DNA of 64,000 nt from a virus. Of this stretch, positions 13,414 through 35,938 are shown in pieces. Location: positions 1 through 64,000 of IMG/VR virus record IMGVR_UViG_3300031851_000013, one strand, 5' to 3'. Every line of letters starts with the position of its first letter. Position 1 is the first letter of the stretch. The position numbers and the translations under genes are program-made. Below the pieces are notes generated by a model that saw nothing but the letters and a program-made list of their open reading frames with translations, searched no databases and was not told the DNA's origin.

Positions 13414-16400
13414 CTAGCAAGGGCTCCAAGGTACATCTACACTTCTACCAGAGAAGCCTAAATTCCTATAAACCCTGCGCCTATGTTTTGCAACGGGAGA
13501 GCAATTAAAGGCTCGGTCGCTGTGTATTGATTTCATCGTTGCTTCCCAAGTATGACCTGCACTAATGTTACCGGAGTACTGAAAGTGCCACCATTCTGAA
13601 CCCATCGTGTTTCTGGAACAGTTTTGAAAATAAGACGTTCTGCCGCCGATTGGTTTAAAGTTAAAAGCTCTCATAAGTTGGGTTAAGTTAATAAAGTTTC
13701 CTGTTGTTGGTCTAACAACCGGTTGTCCGTTTGTACCTCTCGGACAAACTCTCGCATCCAATGTTAATCTTTCTACTCGGTGACCCTCAAATTCGGTTCC
13801 CGGCTCTTTATCTGAACGTGCCCAAACCACCCACATTCTGTTTCCGGGGTATCCCCCTTCGGGGTCATATGTGATCACGAACTCACATTCATCGGGATTT
13901 GAGGTTGGATACAGACTGCCTGCGTGTGTATAAATATCGTACGCTAAATATGTATAGTGAAACGAAGTAGTGCTTCTATTGGTGTTGCTAGGATCATAAT
14001 TACCAAGACCACGACCTGTACCACCATTTGGCAAAATGCCGCCCAGTTCATTAACGACTCTCTTCACTCCTATCATGTCATTCGCAGCATCTTCTCGCAA
14101 GGAAGCCTTGGTACCTCCGTTGCCAGCGCAAAAGTCTGTACGGATAGCATCAAATTGTATTCTAACCTTGTTTGCCTTTGGTTCTGTTAATGGAACGCCG
14201 TCGCCCTGATAAGCAGGGTTTGGTGTGGATGGACCGCCAGAGTGACCTCCTCCTCCACCGCCGCCTCCGGAACCTCCGGAGCCGCCACGACCGCCTGCGC
14301 CACGAGAGCCACCTGCGGAACACCCACCTCTTGCTGCTGGAGTTGGTCCACCTGTCCCAACTTGCCCAGTGGGTGGTGATGTATTTGGTTGGGCTGATGT
14401 GTTTCCTGATGACACTGTTGTATCCGCTGGCTGTTCAGAAGGAGATGATTCACTCGGTGGCTGTGGGTGTACCGCCGTGGATCCTTCCGGTAGATTACCA
14501 CCGGTTGTTGGAGCCGGTGAGGTTCCCTCTGTAGCTTCCTGCACAGCCTGCTGAATTCCGTCTTCTGCCGGTGCTGGTGTCGGTTGCGGGTTTGTTCTAA
14601 CAACCTCTGTTGATGCTTCACCTGTTTCCGGGTTTATTGCTTCACTAATGTCTCCGCTCATAACGGGTGCAGATGAAATTGGTTCAGAACTAGAACCTTC
14701 TGCTGATGCCGATTCCACAGATTCGGTAGCTGCTTCGGTTTGTTCTGACCACCCCTCTGGCTGGAGTTGGGCATACAATGTTGGAGCGAGCTTTTTTGCA
14801 ATATCCGGGGTCCACGGAACTAATGGTCTTCCATTTGCGTGTGGGATGTTGTGCTGAACACATAAAGCCTCGCAAGACTCCCAAGCTCTTCTCATCTCTT
14901 CCGTCTCGTATAAAAAGACTCCATAATTGCCCCTAACACGAGAGTGCCACTCGTGGAACAATTTAGTTTTAACGCCGGAACTTCCAGACGCTTCTACGGT
15001 TCTTAGTAGCCCTCCCGGACCAGAAAAAATTGTAACAATATGAGTAGATGCATGTGGTTGACCGTGTGGTCTTCTTCTTGGAGTAACAGAAGATGTTGCA
15101 CTTGGAATTTGTTTTGCTTCAGTGATGCTCGTCCTGCGACCCATTAATATTAAATCACCGGGCATGGCAGGAGCGTGTGACGAATCAGATCCCCATTCTA
15201 TGTTTGGATCAGTCGTTTCATTATTAATCGTAACCAAGCACCTACCCAATCCTCTTCGGTAAGACGCATAAGCACTGTGCATTGGAGACCCAACCAAACC
15301 GTTTCCAAAATAATCACGAGTCCAGCGACCAGAAATACCACGGTTCTTCATAGCCTCGCCCCAAAGGGCAGGACTGCCGTATTCAACTGCGTGCCACGGT
15401 AAATCAATTCGTGAGCCAGCAGGGATAACGTCGGCAGCGGTGTTGTTTCCCTCTGATTTAAACCCCTTACCAGTCCATCCTTGAAACCTGTTGTTCTGTA
15501 AACCATTAAGATTAGAATCTGAACTCATCATCAGTTCAACCATGCTTCTGGATAGGTGTGTGAACCCAGAACAGTCAATACCGCCACGCTCATGCATCCA
15601 ATGTTTACAGCCCCATCCATAAGGTCTTCCGACCTGATCTTCAGCTACAAGCCTCTGTGCTAATAGAATTCTCTCTAAATAATTCTCCATGTGGTTAACA
15701 CAACCAATACCGATGCGTCCTGAAACGCTCACACTTCTACCGCCTCGTTCAACATACCTAACAAATTGTTCACGATACATATGTGGTCTTCCGTTGTCGG
15801 AACCAGAGCGAACTGGGTATGTTGGAGTTTGAGTCTGAAAACAGTTCTCACAATTTGCTGATGTTGACCCTCTAAAACTTCTCTGTGGGGGTATTGTTCT
15901 ACTTCTCTTCGGATGAGAAATACAAACACGTTCTTGTTCTGATAACGGTGCATACGCTAAGTTTGGAAACTGCAAGTGAACAGATTCTGCGTTGGTTGCA
16001 GCAAGCTGTTGGTATTCTCTATTAAATTCTAATGCTTCGCCAGATGCAGGGTTCGGACCTGTTGTGTTTCCACCAAAGACCGAAGCCACTGCACCACGTA
16101 CAGCGTTAGCCACGGCTCCTAAGACACCGCCGACGGAACCAGTGGCTGCGTCACGAGCACATGTACTATCACCCGGTTGGGGGCTCGGTTCAGAGAAAAC
16201 CTTTCCAATATAATAAGGATCTTCAAACGTCTCGTTATTTCCAAAATTTACCCAAACGAGGTCGCCAGCCTCGGCATCTTCAGTAGCCGAGTCACGAGCA
16301 ATGAATGTTGGGTACATTCCTATTTTTTTATATTCAGGATCATCGCCGCCGCCATCAATGTATGGCAAATACTTCTCAACTCTGGGCAAGTCTATGTGTA

Positions 16401-30616: not shown

Positions 30617-31540
30617 ATGGAGAGAAGACTTAGAAATACCATCAGCTTTTTAGCGATGGCGATGCTCGCAGCAAGTATGAATGTTGCTTGTGCCGGGATT
30701 AACAAACGAGTTGTTGCCCCAACGGATTCCTTCACCCTATTATCATCAAATCACATAGTTGAAATTTGTGCAAGTCAAGAGACTCAAGAAGATCCAGAGT
30801 TTCAATCTTCTGGATTACCTGTTTGTGCTTCTTTTGAATCTAAGAGTCTTGCTAGTGGTTCTATAATTAGACATTACAGGGAACCTACGGAAAGAGAAGA
30901 AAGAAGTCTTGTACTAAGTGTGGCTCACTGGTGTCAACCTCCGACTGGTAATGATGTTTTACAAATGATTCCTCGGGGTGGACCTAGAGAAATGGTAATG
31001 GCTGGAATTTATACTATTAGCAGGCACGCAGCTATTGAGTATGCAATTGATAATCTTGGCGTACAACATAATGTAACTAGGAAGGTTTCCATTGACAACG
31101 ATGTTGATGTTTGTCTCATAGAAGTTGAGAGAATTGATATGCCAGCTTTAAGAATCTTACCGGAAAACCCAAACCACGGTGATCGGGTTTTAAATATGGC
31201 TGCGCCTTGGGGATATTTCAATCCTCCAAACATTTTTATTGATGAAGGTTTATACCTCGGAGAGTGCAGAAACCCGGAGGTTTGTAGAATCGTCGGTGAG
31301 TTTAGCATTTCAGGAATTTATGCTGGACAAGGTAGTTCAGGTTCACCAATATTAATTAGAAGAGGAGGACGTTGGCACATTGCTGGTATTATCCACGCAG
31401 TACGTGTCGCACCGTTCGGAGGTGCTTACTTACCGATGGGTGCATCAGTTGAACAAATCAACAATGTTATTCGTAGAGATTTTATTCCGTACCTTACAGG
31501 TCAGGGACAATCAAACCCCAAGGAACCTAACATGAAGTGA
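30617..31540 (+). CDS. Exported trypsin-like serine protease
   Basis: 307 aa. Residues 1-25 form a signal peptide (TISFLAMAMLAASMNVAC) ending in a weak lipobox-like cysteine, so the product is secreted or a lipoprotein. The chymotrypsin-fold triad can be read as His104 (SVAHWC), Asp164 (DVDVCLIEV) and Ser241 (GQGSSGSPI). Extra cysteines suggest disulfides and so a periplasmic or outer-surface location. It is the first of three overlapping plus-strand genes, against the direction of all others. Phage trypsin-like proteases with a signal peptide are rare. It may process host surface proteins or block superinfection; both are inference. Confidence 0.85.
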   Translation: MERRLRNTISFLAMAMLAASMNVACAGINKRVVAPTDSFTLLSSNHIVEICASQETQEDPEFQSSGLPVCASFESKSLASGSIIRHYREPTEREERSLVLSVAHWCQPPTGNDVLQMIPRGGPREMVMAGIYTISRHAAIEYAIDNLGVQHNVTRKVSIDNDVDVCLIEVERIDMPALRILPENPNHGDRVLNMAAPWGYFNPPNIFIDEGLYLGECRNPEVCRIVGEFSISGIYAGQGSSGSPILIRRGGRWHIAGIIHAVRVAPFGGAYLPMGASVEQINNVIRRDFIPYLTGQGQSNPKEPNMK

Positions 31541-32553
31541 ACAAATCCATAGCCAATGTCGCACTTTTAACCCTACTCTCTTTTACAGGGTGTGTGACTG
31601 ACTATGGTATACACGCACCAAAAGAATATATTGAGGTCGTAGTCGAAGTAGAGGTGCCCGCCGAAGACGGATGGAGTGGTGATGTATGGGTTGATCACTT
31701 TTATCAATCAGCGACCATGAATGGAATTGATATTTTGTGGGTTATTGATAGATCCGGTTCCATGAGCACTCACAACACACGTCTATTATTAGGCATTGAA
31801 TCAATGCTTAACGTTTTAAATAGCTTACCCATGACAACACAGTGGAGATTGGCAATGATGAGTGCAGATGGTACCAAGAGTATCAACGAAGTCCAATTTC
31901 CCCTAACATATGGTGCTGACATTATTGATGCGACGAACATGTTCAACGCAACTCTTAAGGGTGGGTATGAGGAAGGCTTTGATGCATCATATGAATATAT
32001 TACAAACAATGCATATTCCAGCACTTGGATGAGGAATGATGCTGCACTATTAATTGTTTTTGTTTCTGATGAGCAAGAACAAAGTTCGGGCTTTACAGGA
32101 GCTTCAGATTATGTTAGTTGGTTAAGTTCTCTAGGAAGACCACAAGTTTACGTATCCAGTATTGTAAATATAAACCCAACGTATTCAATCTGCAACGGCT
32201 CCATGACCAATGTTGGAGCCGACTATATTGATGCAACGAACCTATTGGGCGGAGTGGTTGTTGATATTTGTTCCGAAGATTGGAGTGCCGGTATGACAGA
32301 TGCCGCCAATCAATTAGAGCCAGTTATAGAATATGAGTTAACCCATGAACCAATACCAGAATCCATTGAAGTGTTTGTAAACGGTCAAGTTTATGACAAT
32401 TCGTTGTGGTATTATGAAGGTACAATCAACAGCGTCATATTTACTGAAACAGATGCGAGCGGTGCTATTGTCGGACCACCGGCAAGTACTTTAGTGGAAA
32501 TCGGATATGTTTATGAATCAGATGAAGGAGATACGGGTGATACGGGTATTTAA
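31537..32553 (+). CDS. Exported von Willebrand factor A domain lipoprotein
   Basis: 338 aa starting at GTG that overlaps the protease stop by three bases. The signal peptide IANVALLTLLSFTGC ends at Cys19 with a weak lipobox. A vWA domain follows (about 60-270): MIDAS motif DRSGSM (Asp71, Ser73, Ser75), TLKGGYEEGFDA supplying the Thr/Asp positions, and IVFVSDEQEQ. The last 65 residues are a small beta domain ending EGDTGDTGI. vWA domains bind proteins through a metal ion. Translational coupling to the protease suggests that they work together at the cell envelope. Confidence 0.85.
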   Translation: MNKSIANVALLTLLSFTGCVTDYGIHAPKEYIEVVVEVEVPAEDGWSGDVWVDHFYQSATMNGIDILWVIDRSGSMSTHNTRLLLGIESMLNVLNSLPMTTQWRLAMMSADGTKSINEVQFPLTYGADIIDATNMFNATLKGGYEEGFDASYEYITNNAYSSTWMRNDAALLIVFVSDEQEQSSGFTGASDYVSWLSSLGRPQVYVSSIVNINPTYSICNGSMTNVGADYIDATNLLGGVVVDICSEDWSAGMTDAANQLEPVIEYELTHEPIPESIEVFVNGQVYDNSLWYYEGTINSVIFTETDASGAIVGPPASTLVEIGYVYESDEGDTGDTGI

Positions 32554-33598: not shown

Positions 33599-33880
33599 TT
33601 AAAGAGGCTTGTACCCCTTGTGATAATAATTTTCACCTTCTATTTTCATAAATGAATCATAATCCTCATGAAGATGAAAATAACCTAAAACCTCTGGAAT
33701 GTCTTGACAATCTTCTGGTAATGGGTAAATCTTACCAAATGGTAGAGAAGAAGCTGGGTTGAAGAAGAAGGGGTCCACAGTTTCAAGTGAAGACCACCAA
33801 GCAATCATCTCCTTACGAGATTTACTTGTTTCCCAAACCCAGTGGCGGTAGCCATATTCTTCATCTACTAAAAATTTCAT
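33599..33880 (-). CDS. Hypothetical protein rich in aromatic residues
   Basis: 93 aa starting at the TAATG overlap with clpP. The sequence is rich in Trp, Tyr and Phe (YGYRHWVWETSKSRKEMIAWWSSLETVDPFFFNPAS, then EVLGYFHLHEDYDSF). It is translationally coupled to clpP, so a ClpP-related role such as an adaptor cannot be excluded, but nothing in the sequence shows this. Family not recognised. Confidence 0.65.
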   Translation of the reverse strand: MKFLVDEEYGYRHWVWETSKSRKEMIAWWSSLETVDPFFFNPASSLPFGKIYPLPEDCQDIPEVLGYFHLHEDYDSFMKIEGENYYHKGYKPL

Positions 33881-34497
33881 TAAATGATCTCGTCAATCAA
33901 ACCATACTTGAGACACTTCTCTGCGTCCCACCATAGATCGTGTTTTAAAATCTTATCAAGTTCTTTTTTGGGAACTTGAGTGTGCTCTTCGTAAATCTCT
34001 TTAATAACTTTCATAAAGTTATCACAGTTCTCCATGTCATCTTGAAGTTCTTCATACTTCCCCCATAACCCAGAAGATAACTGGTGGATTAACATATAAG
34101 CATGACGATTCATCTGACGATGACTGGCAGTGACACTCATCATAGTTGCAGCACTAGCTGCACAACCATCAATTACAGAAACCACTGGGACTTTAGATTT
34201 AATAATATAGTCAACAGAAGATAACCCAGCAAAAACACTACCACCATATGAATTAATATGAAGATAGATCTTACCGGGATCAGTATTCAGCGTGACCGAA
34301 CGATTCTGAAGGTTAATATCTAAATTAACCAAAGACTTATTTAGTTCTAAATTCTTGGTCCTTGAGACCTCTGAATAAAAGTAAATCCTGTTATTAACAG
34401 TCTCTACTTTATTGTTATCATCAGAAGAAGCTGCTTCTGAACCACATATGGCGGTAGGATCTTTCTTCTCACCTAACCAATAAATATCTTTTCTCAT
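33880..34497 (-). CDS. clpP: ClpP-like serine protease
   Basis: 205 aa, typical length for ClpP. The catalytic Ser115 lies in GCAASAATMM, His138 in YMLIHQLSSGLWG, and an Asp in the KHDLWW region completes the triad; INSYGGSVFAGLSSVDYI is the oxyanion/handle strand. The first 35 residues are a variable extension with Ser/Asp. A good ribosome site (AGGAG) precedes the ATG. ClpP needs an unfoldase (ClpX or ClpA), not seen here, so host unfoldase would be used. It lies about 420 bases downstream of a phage tmRNA whose tag ends in LALAA, a host ClpXP-type signal. It could also mature the capsid. Confidence 0.9.
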   Translation of the reverse strand: MRKDIYWLGEKKDPTAICGSEAASSDDNNKVETVNNRIYFYSEVSRTKNLELNKSLVNLDINLQNRSVTLNTDPGKIYLHINSYGGSVFAGLSSVDYIIKSKVPVVSVIDGCAASAATMMSVTASHRQMNRHAYMLIHQLSSGLWGKYEELQDDMENCDNFMKVIKEIYEEHTQVPKKELDKILKHDLWWDAEKCLKYGLIDEII

Positions 34498-34524: not shown

Positions 34525-34601
34525 TGGCACGCCCGAGAGGACTTGAACCTCTAACCCTCCGCTTAGAAGGCGGATGCTCTATCCAGTTGAGCTACGGGCG
34601 C
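34525..34601 (-). tRNA. trnR(ucu): tRNA-Arg (anticodon TCT)
   Basis: Cloverleaf on the minus strand: acceptor GCGCCCG/CGGGCGT (first pair G-U), D-arm GCTC/GAGC, anticodon stem TCCGC/GCGGA with loop CTTCTAA, T-arm AGAGG/CCTCT with loop TTCAAGT. Discriminator G and CCA are encoded. It reads AGA codons. It is first in the transcript that also carries clpP. Confidence 0.95.
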
Positions 34602-34620: not shown

Positions 34621-34649
34621 AATATAACACAGCTTTACTGCTTTGTCAA
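34621..34649 (-). promoter_or_regulatory. Sigma70-type promoter for tRNA-Arg/clpP
   Basis: TTGACA (34649-34644), 17-base spacer, TATATT (34626-34621) on the minus strand. Expected start is about ten bases upstream of tRNA-Arg. It begins two bases after a terminator, so it opens a separate unit. Confidence 0.75.
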
Positions 34650-34651
34650 AT

Positions 34652-34690
34652 AAAAAAAGCCGGTACAAGTAAAAAAACTCATACCGGCTT
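34652..34690 (-). terminator. Intrinsic terminator after the 56-aa gene
   Basis: Nine-base-pair stem AAGCCGGTA (34657-34665) with TACCGGCTT (34682-34690), 16-base loop; on the minus strand it is followed by a T run. It ends the transcript with the tmRNA. Confidence 0.85.
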
Positions 34691-34709
34691 TGAAACTTAA
34701 TATGTTTAT

Positions 34710-34880
34710 TTATTTTTCTGAAACTGCGTCTTCAGCTTTTCCGAGTAGAGAAGCGAGCTTTACTCTAATTCTCTTTACAGGTGTGGTAACGTTTTCCACG
34801 ATAAGACCTGTAGCTACGCCAATACCCAGTGCGAGCGCATGTGTTCCTACGAACTGTACTATTTGTTGTAATGTTTCCAT
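34710..34880 (-). CDS. 56-aa membrane protein next to tmRNA
   Basis: Too short for usual gene finders. The frame begins METLQQIVQFVG and carries a hydrophobic THALALGIGVATGLIV helix, then a charged amphipathic KRIRVKLASLLGKAEDAVSEK tail. GGAG is eight bases before the ATG, and a terminator starts 20 bases after the stop, so it looks like a real gene. It sits 39 bases after the tmRNA 3' end in the same unit. Function unknown. Confidence 0.7.
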   Translation of the reverse strand: METLQQIVQFVGTHALALGIGVATGLIVENVTTPVKRIRVKLASLLGKAEDAVSEK

Positions 34881-34919: not shown

Positions 34920-35281
34920 TGGTGGAGGTGGGGAGAGTCGAACTCCCGTCCACAATAGCTTTAATATTAAGTCATTCACAAGCTTGTTCGGTTTACTATC
35001 AGAAACCGACAAAGATAGATAGACAACCCTGCGCTTACTATCCTGTTGCGCTCCACCTATAAATAGGGAACCATTGTGGTTTTGTTTATTTTAGTGGAAC
35101 CAACCACTTATCCTAAATTGGTAAGATGGCTTTAGGAAACCACCCGATTAAGCTGCTAGAGCTAGTTCGTAATTGTTATTGTTATTGGCAATTAAAATTT
35201 TGTAACGCTGTCAAGCCATGTGTTACCGTTGGCTACTTGCACTCTCTACCTCTACTACCCTGTCGAATCCATTTCACCCCC
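34920..35281 (-). ncRNA. ssrA: tmRNA (one-piece transfer-messenger RNA)
   Basis: 362 nt. The 5' end GGGGGTG pairs with CACCTCC next to discriminator A and an encoded CCA (34922-34920); the third pair is G-U, the alanine identity element. The 5' region has the conserved GGATTCGACAGGG and the 3' region has the T-arm GGGAG/CTCCC with loop TTCGACT. An internal open frame supplies the tag (see next entry). It frees stalled ribosomes and tags their peptides for proteolysis. Its 5' end overlaps the HTH gene, so maturation by RNase P from the operon transcript is implied. Phage-borne tmRNA is rare. Confidence 0.96.
35148..35189 (-). other. tmRNA tag reading frame (ANNNNNYELALAA)
   Basis: The resume codon GCC at 35189-35187 is followed by five Asn codons, then Tyr-Glu-Leu-Ala-Leu-Ala-Ala and TAA at 35150-35148. 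The sequence ends in LALAA like the ALAA ends of bacterial tags seen by ClpXP; the poly-Asn spacer is unusual. Confidence 0.9.
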
Positions 35282-35608
35282 ATTAATATATTGTTCTGAT
35301 TTGAACTTCTTATATAGTTGTCTAAATGCTTTCGGAGTAATCCCCAAAAACCTACTTGCTTCACCTTTAGTTTTAGTTGCTGTTAATGCAAATGTAAAAA
35401 TAGATTCTTTAATAATATCTTGAAGTGAGAACCATAATGGTAAACCATATAATTTACCGCCTGCTGCTTTAGCAGCTAGTTCTAACTTTAATGAAATTAT
35501 TTCCTCTAGTGTTAGACTATTGAGAAGGACTTCTAAATCATATGACAGTCTCTTCTCTTTTTTTAGTCTTCTTAATAGTGAGAATTCTTTGTTACCTATT
35601 TTCTTCAT
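35255..35608 (-). CDS. Fis-type helix-turn-helix protein
   Basis: 117 aa from the ATG at 35608 (a TTG 15 bases upstream is possible). N-terminal helices (FSLLRRLKKEKRLSYDLEVLLNSLTLEEIISLKLELAAKAAGGKLYG) lead to a C-terminal DNA-binding helix-turn-helix (TKTKGEASRFLGITPKAFRQLYKKF), like Fis/NtrC-type HTH. The last eight codons and stop lie in the 5' strand of the tmRNA acceptor region. It may regulate this early unit. Overlaps the upstream gene by 17 bases. Confidence 0.78.
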   Translation of the reverse strand: MKKIGNKEFSLLRRLKKEKRLSYDLEVLLNSLTLEEIISLKLELAAKAAGGKLYGLPLWFSLQDIIKESIFTFALTATKTKGEASRFLGITPKAFRQLYKKFKSEQYINGGEMDSTG

Positions 35609-35882
35609 TTGAATCTTTTGCAACTCCTAAAATAGCATAACCACAAATATCTTTCCAAGGACTTTCTCCAAAAGCATCTTTGTTATTAGCTACTCTAAAT
35701 AATTTATCAATGACTCTTACTAATGTTAACATATCTTGATATTGATCTACGCTAACACCATTAGGATAAAGTACTTGTAGGATTTTTTGAGCTTGTGAAA
35801 ATGAATCACCATAAGCTTCGTTCTTAGATTGAACTAGCTTACCAATATCACTTCCAATTGTTTCAAAGATCTTGTTATTCAA
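35592..35882 (-). CDS. Nucleotide-modification-associated/MazG-like protein
   Basis: 96 aa. KNEAYGDSFSQAQKIL, then VRVIDKLFRVANNKDAFGESPWKDICGYAILG follow the all-alpha pattern of the DUF1599 group (nucleotide-modification-associated domain) found in phages and related to MazG-type helical pyrophosphatases. The Glu/Asp pattern suits magnesium binding. It is the first gene of the tmRNA unit, starting at a TTG/ATG near 35882. Activity unproven. Promoter at 35911-35938 lies directly upstream. Confidence 0.65.
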   Translation of the reverse strand: MNNKIFETIGSDIGKLVQSKNEAYGDSFSQAQKILQVLYPNGVSVDQYQDMLTLVRVIDKLFRVANNKDAFGESPWKDICGYAILGVAKDSNEENR

Positions 35883-35910: not shown

Positions 35911-35938
35911 ATAATAACACATCTTACATATTTGTCAA
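35911..35938 (-). promoter_or_regulatory. Sigma70-type promoter for the tmRNA unit
   Basis: Minus strand: TTGACA (35938-35933), 16-base spacer, extended TGT-TATTAT (-10 at 35916-35911). It drives the DUF1599-like gene, HTH gene, tmRNA and the 56-aa gene up to the terminator at 34652-34690. Confidence 0.7.

Follow-up and report, generated by a model that had tools for sequence, protein, structure and literature searches.

A one-piece tmRNA gene in an uncultivated marine-type myovirus and the variable tag segment of its relatives

The tmRNA locus

The DNA analyzed here (the window) comprises bases 1-64000, i.e., 64,000 nucleotides, of a 71,615-base IMG/VR record of an uncultivated virus. The record carries baseplate wedge, PhoH, late sigma-like and DNA polymerase exonuclease genes and is therefore regarded as that of a myovirus; it is a marine-type virus of bacteria. 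A real and intact one-piece tmRNA (ssrA) gene of 362 nt with an encoded CCA lies at 34920-35281 on the minus strand, as do the other features described below unless stated otherwise. A first-pass annotation had called a phage-encoded, one-piece tmRNA inside what is now seen as a myovirus record; ARAGORN returned exactly the same coordinates and supplied the strand, which that annotation did not give. The Rfam tmRNA covariance search that it had named as a check yielded a full-length match to RF00023, spanning model positions 1-374 and scoring 111.8 bits (gathering score 47; E 7.8e-43).

The structural details claimed for the RNA were also found. The acceptor stem pairs at 7/7 positions (GGGGGTG with CACCTCC) and contains the G3-U70 pair, with the 5' strand, including G3, at 35275-35281. 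The T-arm (5/5 pairs, loop TTCGACT), the 3' strand of the acceptor stem, the discriminator A and the encoded CCA at the 3' end together occupy 34920-34947, and the conserved 5' block TGGATTCGACAGG is present in the tmRNA. The tag reading frame is internal (35148-35189, tmRNA nt 93-134 by ARAGORN), reads ANNNNNYELALAA with a hydrophobic protease signal at its end and closes with the TAA that had been read there. The Rfam alignment spans the four-pseudoknot region, but posterior values are low in its central, PK2-PK3 part.

Upstream of the tmRNA, a sigma-70-like promoter match (35911-35938; TTGACA-16-TATTAT, 11/12, a consensus match only) precedes a conserved small gene at 35592-35882 (phrog_1485, E 4.9e-8), with homologues in L009, L040, L046, L047, L054 and L060, and a gene for a Fis-like HTH protein at 35255-35608, which is directly upstream of the tmRNA and ends in the stop codon TAG at 35255-35257. 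An alignment of the HTH protein family comprises 28 members; weak profile matches are to NtrC-family chains (E 0.043) and Fis chains (E 0.44), and the predicted model of the protein is all-helical at a mean pLDDT of 77.6. This gene stands ahead of the tmRNA in nearly all loci, mostly within 0.5 kb, and is also present where no tmRNA was called. On the other side, an open frame of 56 aa (34710-34880) separates the tmRNA from an intrinsic-terminator-like hairpin with a 15-bp stem and a T-run (34656-34691), and the 101-nt stretch around this hairpin has a folding z of -5.57. The hairpin is followed by a further sigma-70-like promoter match (34621-34649; TTGACA-17-TATATT, 11/12, likewise a consensus match only), tRNA-Arg(TCT) at 34525-34601 (ARAGORN), a gene for a ClpP-family peptidase of 205 aa at 33880-34497 (PF00574 E 4.5e-27; PDB ClpP E 5.6e-15), tRNA-Asn and tRNA-Thr.

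Other features were seen at these loci. A G[T/A]TCTTT motif resembling boxA of antitermination occurs at nearly fixed spacing, 11-16 nt upstream, in 15 of 36 tmRNAs (L008, L011, L016, L018, L022, L024, L027, L028, L035, L039, L047, L053, L054, L116 and L135) against a background of 1.2% of 40-nt stretches, and the tmRNA of the window is without it. In L116 and L120, short open frames that look Flp-type-pilin-like by eye run up to the first base of the tmRNA and end precisely there. On the strand opposite the tmRNA (30617-32553, plus), the window encodes a trypsin-like peptidase (a weak match) and a VWA-domain protein, and a similar-sized pair is found in the sister phage described below.

Related phages and their tags

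At least 377 stretches of viral contigs encode relatives of the PhoH protein. The search for a close isolate through PhoH returned identities of at most 38%, with none above 40%, and the baseplate protein is 30% identical to those of Flavobacterium phage immuto and Microcystis phage Mel-JY01, both of which are without a tmRNA over the cut-off. Host assignment by way of isolates failed, the nearest ones being too distant.

Phage tmRNAs had been described in the first-pass annotation as known but rare. This agrees with the literature, in which 402 of 18,146 phage genomes carry one (PMC9004378) and the tmRNA database lists 79 unique phage sequences (PMC11915505), yet in the present phage group they are common: 28 of the 50 related records have a one-piece tmRNA that scores above the curated RF00023 cut-off. 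Another 18 of the 50 are without a match at E<=0.001; most records are fragments, but the group may be able to do without the tmRNA. With the tmRNA alone as query, a DNA search of phage records returned short pieces only, mostly of the 3' end. Additionally, tmRNA matches over the cut-off were obtained in two uncultured-phage records, 462 and 484 kb long, one of which has the tag GNNAEMRMAA.

Conservation was assessed over 35 phage tmRNAs, 34 from the phage group and the tag searches and one from the 462-kb uncultured phage. G3-U70 is present in all 35, as are all 12 acceptor and T-arm pairs, with compensatory exchanges among G-C, A-U and C-G at several of them. The tags are open in 35/35 and all end in LAA or MAA, whereas their peptides vary among the relatives of the window (ANDNVEFDYALAA, ANDNVEVDYALAA, ANNNNHFDSVRLAA, ANNNNYELALAA, ANDNVDFALAA and others). 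The phage contig L116 encodes a tag peptide identical to that of the window despite five nucleotide differences, all of them silent: four fall at third codon positions and one turns TAA into TGA. Such silent-only divergence has a P of 0.00037 under random substitutions, so the tag peptide is probably under selection and the tag probably translated. CCA is encoded in 22 of the 35 tmRNAs; the other 13 (L065, L078, L116, L117, L121 and others) would therefore need a CCA-adding enzyme.

The view that the tag looks phage-specific held for the exact peptide and less so for its kind. The full tag ANNNNNYELALAA followed by TAA or TAG was absent from 84,980 bacterial and archaeal species genomes, and a second phage contig, L116, has it. 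The shorter NYELALAA with TAA or TAG gave three stretches in the genome collection, two of which ARAGORN calls as tmRNAs; these bacterial near relatives have the tags ADNYELALAA and ANNENYELALAA, both ending in NYELALAA. Viral contigs gave six matches, 6/6 of them tmRNAs. The exact tag is thus confined to phages within the collections searched, and tags of its kind are not absolutely so.

The tag of the window does not follow the relationships of the surrounding DNA. The sister phage in the PhoH tree (support 100/100; PhoH 85% identical) has the different tag ANDNVDFALAA in a tmRNA that is 86% identical to that of the window over aligned bases, and the genes on both flanks of the window tmRNA are closest to those of this phage (HTH 71%, ClpP 82%). 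L116, with the identical tag, belongs to a distant clade of the same tree. The divergence from the sister phage is concentrated in a segment of tag and PK2 (35102-35191) that resembles other phages instead, with switch points on either side of it, near nt 65-91 and 167-179. Permutation runs placed the segment at tmRNA nt 91-167 with L116 and at nt 65-179 with L118, signals reached in 0 of 10,000 shuffles, and an earlier test on the clustering of mosaic sites gave 0 of 20,000, in a procedure that treats sites as independent and whose signal may be inflated where substitution rates are uneven. The flanks argue against a simple assembly join inside the tmRNA: two joins would be needed, because both sides match the same sister phage. 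L105 itself gives a recombinant signal against L047 (4 of 10,000 shuffles), so any exchange may have run in either direction. L048 and L121, sisters in the PhoH tree with different tags, present a second possible tag switch.

These observations suggest that the mosaic arose by exchange of tag and PK2 as a cassette between related phages. Convergence, or an ancestral tag retained in scattered phages, seems a less probable origin, though one to be taken seriously, since tags are short and probably under selection and L118 has the 5' half, tag and PK2 in common with the window but not PK3/4, so that the window could hold the older form. Against such an origin, the likeness extends beyond the codons through PK2 (90% with L118), and the sister phage has the surroundings of the segment in common with the window. 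If tags do swap as cassettes, these phages would serve as a natural experiment, showing what such a tag has to contain for degradation and whether phages fit their tags to the proteases of the host.

Protein partners and proposed function

Phage tmRNAs as such are already established (PMC9004378, PMC4131195, PMC7162821), and a literature search with partial coverage returned no description of the tmRNAs of this phage group or of tag exchange. Mycobacteriophages of the Bxz1 type and Bacillus phage G likewise encode tmRNA genes (PMC4131195), but infect Mycobacterium and Bacillus. Methylophilales phage Melnitz and related pelagimyophages are, similarly, marine myophages in which ssrA has a transcription-related gene next to it; the Melnitz tmRNA, however, consists of two pieces, has alphaproteobacterial affinity and is linked to a glutamine riboswitch (PMC9004378), whereas that of the window is a single piece and the Rfam search of the window gave no riboswitch. 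Huge phages also have a tmRNA among translation genes, and some of them carry SmpB (PMC7162821), which was not found in the present group. With bacterial one-piece tmRNAs (RF00023) the window shares the full-length match, G3-U70, the T-arm, a tag frame with an alanine resume codon, the LAA end and the encoded CCA, and differs in a PK2-PK3 that fits the model poorly and in a tag absent from the bacterial genomes searched.

No SmpB gene was found in the 50 records, including that of the window (the records are mostly fragments), and no SspB gene in 35 records. Self-sufficient trans-translation would call for a phage-encoded SmpB; given these results, partners from the host would be needed. The gene is likely a working phage copy of ssrA that would carry out canonical trans-translation with host proteins; within the phage group, tag and PK2 behave like an exchangeable cassette and the tRNA-like ends stay fixed. 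During infection, the tmRNA would be cut out of a phage transcript, be aminoacylated with alanine by the host enzyme and, together with SmpB and EF-Tu of the host, enter ribosomes stalled on broken or stop-less messages. The ribosomes would be freed, and the tag (A)ANNNNNYELALAA would be added to the unfinished protein. An ALAA end is a ClpX/ClpA signal (PMC3985003), and the LAA end of the tag would pass the tagged protein to host ClpXP or ClpAP; a protease that includes the phage ClpP is a less likely recipient. The gain for the phage would be that ribosomes are kept available while messages are destroyed. It is possible that the phage tag re-tunes ribosome rescue, as had been proposed at the outset. 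In this large group of uncultivated myoviruses a phage-borne ribosome-rescue RNA is common; it is conserved where it has to fit the machinery of the host, and the label that it would put on proteins varies.

The ClpP of the window has the family domain and keeps the Ser/His/Asp positions (PF00574; alignment to PDB ClpP chains), and ClpP genes occur in 26 of the 50 records. That the tmRNA and the adjoining phage ClpP make up a dedicated tag-and-destroy pair is unlikely. ClpP does begin about 0.4 kb past the tmRNA, on its strand, and one related record, G009, combines a tmRNA with a zinc-finger ClpX and a full canonical ClpP (L145:4340-5731 and 13867-14487). Over the records, however, the two genes co-occur at chance (16/29 vs 10/21, p=0.77), ClpP lies near phoH whether or not a tmRNA is there, and just one of 35 records yielded a ClpX. 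In the window itself a terminator and a promoter match stand between the two, and in PHROG this ClpP matches head maturation proteases best, with no capsid genes beside ClpP in the places examined. The pair was dropped as the main explanation on the chance co-occurrence and on the position of ClpP near phoH irrespective of a tmRNA. In the tmRNA-bearing phage record G019, a second ClpP has an endolysin gene and a GroEL gene (L123:11276-12850) nearby, and in G053 a ClpP copy is near amidase and ribonucleotide reductase genes.

It is quite improbable that the RNA acts as a decoy that binds SmpB, EF-Tu or ribosomes and blocks host rescue. A short tRNA-like form from mycobacteriophage DS6A is reported to inhibit the endogenous tmRNA, perhaps by titrating SmpB (PMC4131195; PMC11915505), but a pure decoy has no need of a tag, and here the frame is open throughout the group, changes are silent where the peptide is the same and the protease signal is kept. 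Host ssrA genes serve as integration sites and prophages hold pieces of them (discussed in PMC9004378), which would allow the gene to be a passenger, acquired through imprecise excision or another transfer and unused by the phage. We consider this the least probable reading, as the gene is full-length and not an attachment-site fragment, keeps its place next to the same HTH gene and phoH even where the phages have diverged strongly, and shows compensatory pairing changes and silent-only tag divergence.

Overlap of the HTH gene and the tmRNA

The stop codon TAG of the HTH gene coincides with tmRNA nt 25-27, both in the window and in the sister phage. In most relatives the HTH gene ends ahead of the tmRNA, so the overlap is at best a derived feature. 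The 5' ends of tmRNAs are produced by RNase P (PMC3985003), and processing of a shared HTH-tmRNA transcript would therefore remove the stop codon. By analogy, and presupposing that both genes are on one transcript, maturation of the tmRNA might make its own substrate: RNase P, cutting at the first base of the tmRNA, would leave the HTH message stop-less, and the freshly released tmRNA would have its product tagged and destroyed in a self-limiting switch. We regard this as a doubtful, speculative reading of the overlap. In E. coli, the stop-less arfA message is made by RNase III, whereas the phage proposal invokes RNase P. The arfA message is a known case of a stop-less message under trans-translation control (PMC3989581; PMC10107115), and the HTH/tmRNA overlap would offer a simple test case for programmed stop-less messages in phages.

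Other upstream genes overlap the tmRNA in L015/L031 and in L065/L121 (the entry listed as L103 being the tmRNA of L065). In L121 and L065, it is a membrane-protein-like gene that enters the tmRNA, and its last residues (GDAFGFDK...) come from the tRNA-like 5' end.
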